Shown here: positions 19,875-34,092 of the stretch, one piece after another
How positions within the stretch are numbered: the first letter of the stretch is position 1
Layout: the number at the start of each line of letters is the position of its first letter
Source: Gammaproteobacteria bacterium
Lineage (GTDB): Bacteria; Pseudomonadota; Gammaproteobacteria; Tethybacterales; Persebacteraceae
Direction: 5' to 3'
DNA: 34,324 nt
NCBI GenBank assembly: GCA_020027345.1
Contig: JAHRAH010000049.1
Coordinates: 1-34,324 of the forward strand
Made by a program: the position numbers and the translations under genes
Notes under the pieces: model-generated
The model's input: only the letters and a program-made list of their open reading frames with translations
What the model was told of the DNA's origin: nothing
Databases searched by the model: none

Positions 19875-19915
19875 AATTTGCCGGATTCCCGCCTCCGGGA
19901 AATATGCGGGAATGA
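19875..19915 (-). repeat. dRS3-like inverted repeat unit (spacer type B) between convergent sppA and xsc
   Basis: AATTTGCCGGATTCCCGCCTCCGGGAAATATGCGGGAATGAC. Confidence 0.8.
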
Positions 19916-19930
19916 CAGTTGCGGCGGCGT

Positions 19931-30178: not shown

Positions 30179-30937
30179 ATGAACGCGAAAGTTTTGTGGA
30201 CGCCCGACATGCCGATGGTTTCCGCGAAGGATGTGCATAAATCCTTCGGCGAGCTGGAAGTGCTGCGCGGCGTTTCCATGGATGTGATGAAGGGCGAATG
30301 CGTCTGCATCATCGGTCCCTCCGGTTCGGGAAAGTCCACATTCATTCGCTGCATCAACGCGCTCAACGACATTCAGCGCGGCTCCATCACCGTGGAAGGA
30401 ATGCGGGTGGACGACCCCGCGCTGGACAAACTCGCGCTGCGCAAAAAAGTGGGGATGGTCTTCCAGCAGTATAATTTGTTCCCGCACAAAACCGCGCTGG
30501 AAAACATTATGATGGCGCCGCTCAAAGTCCTGCGGCAGGAAAAAGCCGAAGCCGAAAAGAACGCGCGCGCGCTCATAAAAAAAGTGCGCCTGCAGGGAAA
30601 GGAAAACAACTATCCCGGCGAACTCTCCGGCGGGCAGCAGCAGCGCGTCGCCATCGCCCGCTCGCTGGCGATGCGCCCCGATGTGATGCTCTTTGACGAA
30701 GTTACCGCCGCATTGGACCCGGAAACGGTGAAGGAAGTGCTGGCGGCCATACGCGAACTCGCGCACGAGGGAATGACATGCATTCTGGTAACGCACGAAA
30801 TGGGCTTCGCCCGCGAAGTCGCCAACCACATATATTTCACCGACCGCGGAATCATCGTGGAACACGCCCCCCCCGATGAATTCTTCACCCAGGCAAAAGA
30901 CCCCCGCACCCGCCAATTCCTCAGCCAAATTTTATAA
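30179..30937 (+). CDS. polar amino-acid ABC transporter ATP-binding protein
   Basis: GPSGSGKST, VFQQYNLFPHKTALENIMMAPLKV, ELSGGQQQRVAIARSLAMRPDVMLFDEVTAALDPE. Confidence 0.95.
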   Translation: MNAKVLWTPDMPMVSAKDVHKSFGELEVLRGVSMDVMKGECVCIIGPSGSGKSTFIRCINALNDIQRGSITVEGMRVDDPALDKLALRKKVGMVFQQYNLFPHKTALENIMMAPLKVLRQEKAEAEKNARALIKKVRLQGKENNYPGELSGGQQQRVAIARSLAMRPDVMLFDEVTAALDPETVKEVLAAIRELAHEGMTCILVTHEMGFAREVANHIYFTDRGIIVEHAPPDEFFTQAKDPRTRQFLSQIL

Positions 30938-30938
30938 T

Positions 30939-30974
30939 TCCCCCCTCCATCTCCGATGGGGGGACTGGGGGGTA
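30939..30974. repeat. C/G hairpin element related to that at 27349-27386
   Basis: TCCCCCCTCCATCTCCGATGGGGGGACTGGGGGG vs C10ATCTCCGATG8TTG9. Confidence 0.75.
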
Positions 30975-30996
30975 ATCCGGCAAATCAACCACTATT

Positions 30997-31180
30997 GCGT
31001 CATTCCCGCACTCCCCCAAAAAAGCGGGAATCATTCCGCGTCATTCCCGCACTCCTCCAAAAGGCGGGAATCCAGCGAATTACCCCCCTCGCGTCATTCC
31101 CGCACTCCCCCAAAAAGGCGGGAATCCAGCAAATTGCGTCATTCCCGCACTCCCCCAAAAAAGCGGGAATCCAGCGAATT
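30997..31180 (+). repeat. array of four dRS3-like inverted-repeat units upstream of the GIY-YIG gene
   Basis: Units begin at 30997, 31038, 31091, 31136: GCGTCATTCCCGC-ACTCCYCCAAAA(A)-RGCGGGAATCCAGCRAATT; 8-bp perfect arms ATTCCCGC/GCGGGAAT. Confidence 0.92.
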
Positions 31181-31199
31181 TTTAGAATACAATAACCAA

Positions 31200-31493
31200 A
31201 TGCGCGAGGGACAGCCGGCGGTTTACATAATGGCGAGCGGGCGCAACGGCACCTTGTATACCGGCGTAACAAGCGATTTGCCCCGGCGGGTCTGGCAGCA
31301 CAAAAACGGCGAAACCGGCGGCTTTGTGCAAAAACACGGAATTAAAATACTCGTGCATTACGAGTTGTTTGATTATATGCCCGCCGCCATTGAACGCGAA
31401 AAACGGATAAAAAAATGGCGCCGGCAATGGAAAGTCCGGCTTATAGAAAAAAACAATCCCCATTGGCTGGACTTGTACGGCGGGATTGTTTAA
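31200..31493 (+). CDS. standalone GIY-YIG domain endonuclease (97 aa)
   Basis: MREGQPAVYIMASGRNGTLYTGVTSDLPRRVWQHKNGETGGFVQKHGIKILVHYELFDYMPAAIEREKRIKKWRRQWKVRLIEKNNPHWLDLY: GIY (VYI), YIG (YTG), Arg, and Glu in AIEREKRIKKW. Confidence 0.92.
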   Translation: MREGQPAVYIMASGRNGTLYTGVTSDLPRRVWQHKNGETGGFVQKHGIKILVHYELFDYMPAAIEREKRIKKWRRQWKVRLIEKNNPHWLDLYGGIV

Positions 31494-31497
31494 GCAC

Positions 31498-31875
31498 CAT
31501 TCCCGCGCTTCTTTAATTTGCTGGATTCCCGCCTCTGGAAAAAATGCGGGAATGACGCAGGGAGGATTCCCGCCCCCCGAAAATGCAGGAATCCCCTTAA
31601 CGCGCCATTCCCGCACCCCTCCAAAAAGGCGGGAATCCAGCAAATTGCGTCATTCCCGCACTCCTCCAAAAGGCGGGAATCCAGCAAATCAAACCCCCTT
31701 GCGTCATTCCCGCACCCGACGCCATCCCCGCATTGCGTCATTCCCGCACTCCACCAAAAAGGCGGGAATCATTCCGCGTCATTCCCGCACTCCCCCAAAA
31801 AGGCGGGAATCCAGCGAATTAACACTCTTGCGTCATTCCCGCACTCCTCCAAAAAGGCGGGAATCCAGCAAATCA
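31498..31875. repeat. array of dRS3-like inverted-repeat units downstream of the GIY-YIG gene, mixed orientation
   Basis: Inverted unit 31515-31558 plus a variant to ~31592; direct units starting at about 31602, 31646, 31701 (truncated), 31734, 31776, 31830. Confidence 0.9.
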
Positions 31876-31929
31876 AACAACCGCCACAACAACCGTGACC
31901 ACTATCCGAACCCAAAACGGCACACGCTT
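31830..31929 (+). repeat. 100 bp direct repeat, copy 1
   Basis: GCGTCATTCCCGCACTCCTCCAAAAAGGCGGGAATCCAGCAAATCAAACAACCGCCACAACAACCGTGACCACTATCCGAACCCAAAACGGCACACGCTT; one mismatch to copy 2. Confidence 0.92.
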
Positions 31930-31977
31930 GCTCACTATCTACAACTACTCCCCACACGCCAGCCGCTATAACCCGCA

Positions 31978-32596
31978 GTGCATACCAGCCCATCCAACCG
32001 AGTATCCCCGGAACAACACCCACAATTACAACACCCCCCATTCGCAATTAACACCGGAATCGCTTCCGTGCGCCCCCCGCTTTTCTTTAAGCGCCTGCAA
32101 CCCGAGCGAAATTGGTTTGACACCGCGACCTCCTTAGGCGTGTGGCACTCGTGGAAGGAATTTGCCGTCTACTACGAAAACGCCCGCCGCTGGAATCTTA
32201 TGTCCCCCGAGTGGTTGCGCTTCCGGGAATGGTTTCTAACTTACTTACTGCCGATGGCGGTGGAACCCCGGCAGATTTGTCACCCCGACGAACCCGACCG
32301 GCGATGTAAATGGCGACGAAATGTGCGCCCTCTGCTTTGCCGCCTTTGACAGGGCAGGATACTTTACCGGCGATTCCCAAATCGGCGAACCCCCCGACTG
32401 GTGCCAATACGGCGTAACCCCCGAAGGCAACTGGGCCGCCCTCTGCTTTAATCCATTTTCTGTCATTCCCGCATTCTCCAAAAAGCGGGAATCCAGCAAA
32501 TTCCACCGCTGCGACTCCTGCAACGACGGAATCCTCCGCTACTCCAACAACCCCAACCTCGCCATCATCCCCGCACCCGACGCCATCCCCGCATAG
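31978..32596 (+). pseudogene. frame-broken Cys-rich ORF of unknown function (ORF 31978..32349 and ORF 32321..32596)
   Basis: WFDTATSLGVWHSWKEFAVYYENARRWNLMSPEWLRFREWFLT in frame 1 would continue into YCRWRWNPGRFVTPTNPTGDVNGDEMCALCFAAFDRAGYFTG...WCQYGVTPEGNWAALCFNPF in frame 2 if one ACTT is removed at 32238-32248; 3' part carries an in-frame repeat insertion followed by RCDSC. Confidence 0.4.
32460..32502 (+). repeat. dRS3-like repeat unit inside the Cys-rich ORF
   Basis: TGTCATTCCCGCATTCTCCAAAAAGCGGGAATCCAGCAAATT. Confidence 0.85.
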
Positions 32597-32803
32597 CGTC
32601 ATTCCCGCACTCCAAAATTAACCCTCTTGCGTCATTCCCGCACTCCTCCAAAAAGGCGGGAATGACGCAGGGGGGGGGGATTCCCGCCTCCGGAAAAAAT
32701 GCGGGAATGACGCAGGGGGGGGATTCCCGTCCCCCGAAAATGCGGGCATCCACTTAAAGCGTCATTCCCGCACTCTTCCAAAAAGGCGGGAATCCAGCAA
32801 ATC
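32596..32803. repeat. third cluster of dRS3-like units, mixed orientation, with G-runs
   Basis: Direct units at about 32596 (truncated), 32629 and 32759; inverted units in GATTCCCGCCTCCGGAAAAAATGCGGGAATGACGC and GATTCCCGTCCCCCGAAAATGCGGGCATC. Confidence 0.9.
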
Positions 32804-32858
32804 AAACAACCGCCACAACAACCGTGACCACTATCCGAACCCAAAACGGCACACGCTT
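32759..32858 (+). repeat. 100 bp direct repeat, copy 2
   Basis: Identical to 31830-31929 except CTTC for CTCC. Confidence 0.92.
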
Positions 32859-32942
32859 ACGCATTCGCCATCATTCCCGCCCCCGACGCCATCATTCCCA
32901 CCTCCGACGCCATTCTCGCCGCCACTGACGACGCCTGATTTA

Positions 32943-33996
32943 TTACGGGACCGAAACTCGCACTCTCGCAATTATTCCATCATCCGTCAAGGATGCACTC
33001 CGAACAATAAAGGTGTTATTCTGAGCTCCGGGAAAACCCACAATCGGAAAAGCATACCCCGGACAACGAAGTTCGGTCGCATCCGTTATATTACATAACC
33101 CGCCATTGAGAATAAGCAAAGCAATCATTCCCGCGTCATTATGAGTGGAAAACGCTAAATCCAGCGGCGTAGCGCCCGCATTATTCATTGCATTAATGCG
33201 CGCTCCTTCCTCCAACAAGACCGACAATCCTGCAGTAATACCAGACGAATCTGGATCACTCCGTGCAAAGTAATGAATTGGCATGTCGCCGTTACTGTCC
33301 GCTGCATTAATGCTCGCTCCCGCACTTAGCAAAATCGTCATAACAGTAAACTGAAAGTGAAACCCAACCGCCACCATTAGAGGCGTATAACCATGTGAAA
33401 CCGCAAAAATTCTACTGTGCGATGTCATATTAACATTCGCGCCGGCCGAAAGAACTGCAGTGATTATAGAAACATTATTAAACCCAATTGCATTAAGCAG
33501 CGGCGTAGCGCCGTCACTATCCTTCACATTAACACTCGCCCCCGCCGACAGCAATGCCGTTGCTGACCTATACCTCGTTCACATCAGCGCCCGAAGCGGC
33601 GAACATCGTAACCGTCGCCAAATCCATCGCATACAGCGAAGCAAGCCGGGCGGCGATGGAATCCGCGCCCTCCAAACCAAAAGCGGCGCAACCATTCTGA
33701 ATACTGCAAGAATCCAATCCCCGCAAAGTAACAAAAGCCATCCCCGTCGCATTGACATGCCGGGGCGTAAAAGTCCCGCTTTCCAAAGTGCCGGTAACGG
33801 CAAAAACAGTCGCCGTCATCGTCCCCGCTTGCGTCCCCTTGTAAATGAGATAGCCGTCGGCGGACAGCGAAACAAGCGAGGAGGGCTCCGCCGTAAGCGT
33901 AATCGTAACTTCCTGCGCATCGGCGGCGTTTGTCACAGCAAGCCCCGCCCCCGCAAAGAAGAGGGAAGCGCAAAAACGAAGGAAATTCTTTGTCAT
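32943..33996 (-). pseudogene. secreted ankyrin-repeat protein gene interrupted by a frame change
   Basis: 5' part 33568..33996: signal peptide MTKNFLRFCASLFFAGAGLAVTNAADA, ends at ...ASGADVNEV*. 3' part 32943..~33560 in another frame: LLSAGASVNVKDSDGATPLLNAIG...LLSAGASINAADSNGDMPIHYFA...LLEEGARINAMNNAGATPLDLAF. Confidence 0.75.
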
Positions 33997-34092
33997 CAGT
34001 GTCCTTTTCCCGCCCCCAAACGAAAGCAATGACGGCATTATACGCAAAAAATCCCAAAAAAACCCCTCCCCGCAAAAAAAATCCGCCCACCG

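Follow-up and report, generated by a model that had tools for sequence, protein, structure and literature searches.

At positions 31200..31493 (+) of the window, the 34,324-nt stretch of DNA analysed here, lies a gene for a standalone 97-aa GIY-YIG nuclease of the Ssn type. The protein matches PF01541 (GIY-YIG; E = 1.2e-13, 51.6 bits against a cut-off of 22.6), and this domain, together with the active-site residues (two Tyr, Arg, Glu, Asn), places it in the GIY-YIG superfamily. Y9, Y20, G22, R30, H34, E67, and N86 are invariant across 43 homologs. The predicted structure is confident (pLDDT 92.4), and among PDB entries it comes closest to 1zg2 and 1ywl, both UPF0213 proteins, with a weaker resemblance to Slx1 and to the GIY-YIG domain of UvrC. 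A longer ORF (30876-31493) owes its extra length to read-through of the repeats. The nuclease had no match in the PADLOC defence libraries or among 50,697 phage records, and its PHROGs matches were marginal only. Beside the REP-rich region that surrounds the gene lie an ankyrin-repeat protein gene and an adjoining ORF without a Pfam match (32943-33554 and 33568-34047, both −).

The window contains 15 matches to the motif ATTCCCGC-N(3-20)-GCGGGAAT, compared with 0 across 100 dinucleotide shuffles of the same sequence, and 14 of the 15 fall within 31002-32793. Units are laid out as GCGTC-ATTCCCGC-loop-GCGGGAAT-CCAGC. Four of them, all CGTC-REP units with long loops, stand in direct orientation upstream of the gene, at 30997..31036 (+; tail CATTC, not CCAGC), 31038..31076 (+), 31091..31130 (+), and 31136..31175 (+), and the first complete unit downstream is inverted (31520..31558, −), forming an inverted pair around the gene with the fourth upstream unit. 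The first-pass annotation had described the GIY-YIG gene as bracketed by this motif at 20 bp on each side; the bracketing, order, and inversion hold, and the distances become about 24 bp from the fourth unit to the ATG and about 27 bp from the stop codon to the inverted unit, with a degenerate half-unit (31498-31506) standing before the latter. Direct units then follow at 31602..31641 (+; tag CGCC), 31647..31685 (+), 31735..31774 (+; tail CATTC), 31776..31815 (+), and 31830..31869 (+). This second array is real but longer than the first-pass annotation had it, as the cluster continues in a second patch at 32460..32798 that includes a palindrome with GTC tags at both ends (32629-32668). One further long-loop unit stands alone elsewhere in the window (19880..19918, −). 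When folded as ssDNA, units of all three local variants give the expected 7-8 bp hairpin, with a DNA hairpin energy of −7.6 kcal/mol (z = −3.7) for the fourth upstream unit. A near-perfect 105-bp duplication (97%; 31830-31934 and 32759-32863) contains a REP unit and its flank.

The likeness to Neisseria dRS3 repeats proposed in the first-pass annotation is borne out by the CGTC tag, the AT-starting 8-bp stem, and the CCA tail of the CGTC REP superfamily, to which the dRS3 repeats belong as its Neisseria representatives (Di Nocera et al. 2013, PMC3733652). The repeats fit the superfamily definition of a CGTC or TGTC tag, a stem of 8-9 bp starting with AT, and a CCA tail, and they share with the published family, alongside these features and its 8-bp stem, an arrangement mostly in head-to-head pairs. 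They differ from it in their direct tandem arrays and in the loop, which measures 12-14 nt in the window units, whereas 4-5 nt is usual in CGTC REPs, with exceptions noted (PMC3733652). No dedicated transposase was found in association with CGTC REPs in that study, whereas the window repeats have a linked nuclease gene.

Unit statistics were drawn from a 305-kb sample of the genome containing 90 units, among which 33 are CGTC long-loop, 27 TGTC short-loop, and 15 CGTC short-loop; the loop is 4 nt long in 49/90. Across the assembly (2.36 Mb in 194 contigs, 86.5% complete), we found 637 strict motif matches (332 forward, 305 reverse; control 0) and about 616 tagged units, or approximately one per 3.8 kb. 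Among 150 sampled genomes of its class, this genome has the highest REP load, and the runner-up holds 119 units.

A homolog in N. gonorrhoeae shares 54% identity over residues 5-97 of the window protein, and its gene, which we take to be the Ssn gene itself, sits in a dRS3 array (many copies). The Ssn family, reportedly described from Neisseria meningitidis in Nature Communications in 2025, is said to comprise site-specific single-stranded GIY-YIG nucleases with a repeated target (NTS), which reportedly cut ssDNA at such repeats and modulate transformation. The window system shares with Ssn a small standalone GIY-YIG protein with full-length homology to the Neisseria protein, a gene linked to its own repeated palindrome, which would here be the target, and a repeat that varies with the nuclease. 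It differs in its 12-14 nt loop, in having three paralogs and three repeat variants in one genome, and in its very high repeat number. The window pair most likely belongs to the nuclease-repeat kind already described in Neisseria. A full-text search of a limited literature collection returned no paper tying GIY-YIG proteins to dRS3, REPs, or Ssn.

Mapping the units against the nuclease paralogs, as the first-pass annotation had suggested, placed each of the three close nuclease copies of this genome amid a different REP variant. Around the window copy these are CGTC long-loop units, around the copy on contig C141 CGTC units with GTTCCCGC and a GAAA loop, and around the copy on contig C171 TGTC units with a GAAA loop; the C141 and C171 proteins are 61-65% identical to the window protein. 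Such one-variant surroundings are not by themselves proof of specificity, because neighbouring REPs are usually of one variant genome-wide (20 of 25 close REP pairs away from nuclease genes). Three paralogs in another genome (G045) lie beside three different, unrelated palindromes.

The linkage of gene and repeat crosses phyla. We examined 80 homologous loci on contigs labelled Proteobacteria (several classes), Nitrospirales, Planctomycetota, Desulfobacterales, Leptolyngbya (cyanobacterium), Anaerolineae, Elusimicrobia, and others, where TTCCC...GGGAA palindromes reach 6.1 per kb at ≤100 bp from the homologs and 0.04-0.10 per kb past 1 kb. A tagged REP, defined as a GTC-tagged 8-bp hairpin of any stem with a CCA or CTA tail ≤250 bp from the gene, is present at 76/80 loci vs 17/532 displaced control positions, and an inverted flank match of ≥14 nt at 46/78 loci vs 0/262 displaced positions. 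Homologs without repeats nearby, which the first-pass annotation had named as an outcome that would speak against its proposal, are accordingly few. Where the ATTCCCGC stem is missing, the locus mostly carries ATCCCCGC, ATTCCGGC, ATGCCCGC, ATTCCTGC, or a similar stem, each with its matching partner. The stems covary between loci, with compensatory changes in 28 cells compared with 5.0 in shuffles (0/500), in units picked for stem pairing with ≤1 mismatch, which inflates the percentage paired.

The sister GIY-YIG family UPF0213 (YhbQ-type), to which the two nearest solved structures belong, has the same fold and size as the window protein and was separated from Ssn-like proteins by score (full-length matches weaker than ~1e-12, compared with below 1e-25). 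Unlike window-type genes, UPF0213 genes have no link to hairpin repeats: hairpins stand beside 2/17 UPF0213-type controls, compared with 72/80 and 24/30 Ssn-like genes. These comparisons bear on whether REPs simply pile up in permissive intergenic regions where a small non-essential gene survives. The REP density of the genome and the decayed appearance of the region past the gene would fit such an origin, but the linkage is seen again in genomes with few REPs, palindrome density drops ~100-fold within 1 kb of the gene, and both the displaced-position control and the missing linkage around related GIY-YIG genes contradict it, making chance or context a highly improbable explanation. On a Planktothrix plasmid (L165), an Ssn-like gene has MmeI-type restriction genes on one side and DISARM genes on the other; the repeats that flank it are of the TGTCATTCTGAGTGAAACGAAGAATCTC type, a different family that likewise starts with TGTCATTC.

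Among the 150 genomes of the class, a GTCATTCCYGC-type REP occurs in 19/31 Ssn-positive and 15/119 Ssn-negative genomes (odds ratio 11, p = 1e-7, Fisher test with phylogeny ignored), and in several of the Ssn-positive genomes that lack this pattern, the gene adjoins a different stem type. Equal repeat density in genomes lacking the gene, also named beforehand as an adverse outcome, is therefore mostly not what we see, but 6-25 units are present in each of seven genomes (G013, G068, G079, G080, G111, G137, and G150) where no Ssn-like gene was detected. The presence of Y1_Tnp in REP-rich genomes without Ssn favours an alternative in which a Y1 (IS200/RAYT-like) transposase mobilises the REPs, as thought for GTAG REPs, and the GIY-YIG protein is either a passenger or a genome-defence enzyme that restrains or removes REP hairpins. 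Y1_Tnp is found in 29/34 REP-pattern genomes vs 68/116 genomes without the pattern, and the sole Y1_Tnp gene of the window genome (G000 contig C83:918-1259; L163:500-1700), located on a contig other than the window's, is bordered by longer repeats, each of which includes a long-loop REP. However, Y1_Tnp is widespread (97/150 genomes) and tracks the REPs less specifically than Ssn does, and one genome (G059) combines 119 REP units and an Ssn-like gene with no Y1_Tnp. A passenger nuclease would also leave the 76/80 linkage and the variant matching unexplained, and CGTC REPs had no associated transposase in the survey of Di Nocera et al. 2013 (PMC3733652). RAYT/GTAG-REP systems resemble the window system in that copies of a dispersed palindrome flank a gene whose product presumably processes them, but they pair a Y1 HUH transposase with a GTAG tag, whereas the window pairs a GIY-YIG nuclease with a CGTC tag, and the window locus has no Y1 transposase gene flanked by GTAG REPs. 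On this evidence, we regard mobilisation by the Y1 transposase as improbable.

Gene and repeats are present or absent together at conserved sites. On Sphingobium plasmids, several strains carry REP-gene-inverted REP in the gap between fnrL and a response regulator gene. The corresponding gap of TomTYG64 and TomTYG74 contains a single palindrome, GTC-tagged at each end, which looks as though the gene and both inner half-REPs had been removed or never inserted, and two further strains have unrelated sequence there. The double-tagged palindrome of the window resembles the Sphingobium one. A conserved gap in the genus of G155 is occupied by REPs-gene-REPs in three genomes (a stretch of ~760 bp in G155 itself), whereas it contains one short palindrome in G169 and G170 and none in G166. 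In a tree of nine genomes of this genus, the three occupied ones form one clade (support 0.99) and the gene is missing at the site in the other six, although across the other side of the gap the sequence is not conserved in the three most distant of these. Gain is therefore the simpler history, and the REP-nuclease-REP unit was probably gained whole in this genus. The first-pass annotation had proposed a self-contained unit, and occupied and unoccupied versions of conserved sites agree with this.

Other genomes show related behaviour. In G031, three REP-truncated gene-REP elements of 342-378 bp (L193, L194, and L195) are 99.4-99.7% identical and lie in different places; the element looks like a miniature mobile element. 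Among the three copies in G088, homology is confined to the gene, 36-87 bp 5' of it, and the stretch through the end of the 3' REP. Outside their REPs, two of the three G031 elements end in imperfect inverted repeats of ~27 bp. No empty site was seen between the two genomes compared in the genus of G026, and the comparison of Rhizobium plasmids gave no clean empty site.

A host function offers another account of these units. The nuclease would act on ssDNA entering the cell in natural transformation, with the repeats labelling self DNA or fixing recombination ends, and the unit would persist because of this function and not by being selfish. Neisseria Ssn reportedly acts on repeated sites and modulates transformation, and five Xanthomonadaceae loci stand beside type IV pilus genes, four between pilB and pilC (L072, L084, L087, and L100) and one after pilB on a contig that ends soon after (L113). 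This pil location may, however, reflect one old insertion that was vertically inherited; the window gene has no competence genes in its vicinity, and the patchy distribution, together with the cassette-like gain, points to behaviour that is selfish at least in part. A role in transformation is thus possible, but the less likely account.

The gene nearly always adjoins its own version of the repeat and can appear or vanish with it, and for this reason nuclease and repeat very probably work as a pair. A nuclease that recognises this repeat family had been put forward in the first-pass annotation, and the proposal has gained from the linkage to tagged REPs, the variant-matched paralogs, and the gonococcal homolog in its dRS3 array. 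Judged from sequence comparison, we consider it likely that the locus encodes an Ssn-type, REP-specific nuclease with the flanking CGTC REPs as its cognate target, gained and lost as a cassette. The enzyme would recognise the unpaired GTC tag and the hairpin of the repeat when it is single-stranded, during replication or DNA uptake, and would then cut it, each paralog being tuned to its own REP variant. Gene and flanking REPs would form a small cassette that comes and goes as one, and the hundreds of gene-less REPs in the genome would be its non-coding relatives. Cleavage, strand preference, and a causal role in repeat spread are what we infer from these patterns.

More tentatively, the GIY-YIG nuclease could be what moves CGTC REPs, for which a dedicated mobiliser had seemed to be lacking, an idea that we put forward as doubtful. 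The gene with its inverted REP pair would then be autonomous and gene-less REP dimers would be non-autonomous derivatives, with a cut of the extruded hairpin driving insertion or homing.

New here are the long-loop variant, the genome with three paralogs, the control family, and the polarised whole-unit gain. Hairpin-specific single-strand nucleases are of practical use as well, and three nucleases with three repeat variants in one cell provide a natural set for studying specificity. CGTC REPs are widespread, and the 2013 study did not settle their means of spreading because it linked no transposase to them; a nuclease tied to repeat variants across phyla, together with polarised gain, offers a concrete candidate for the spread of these REPs.
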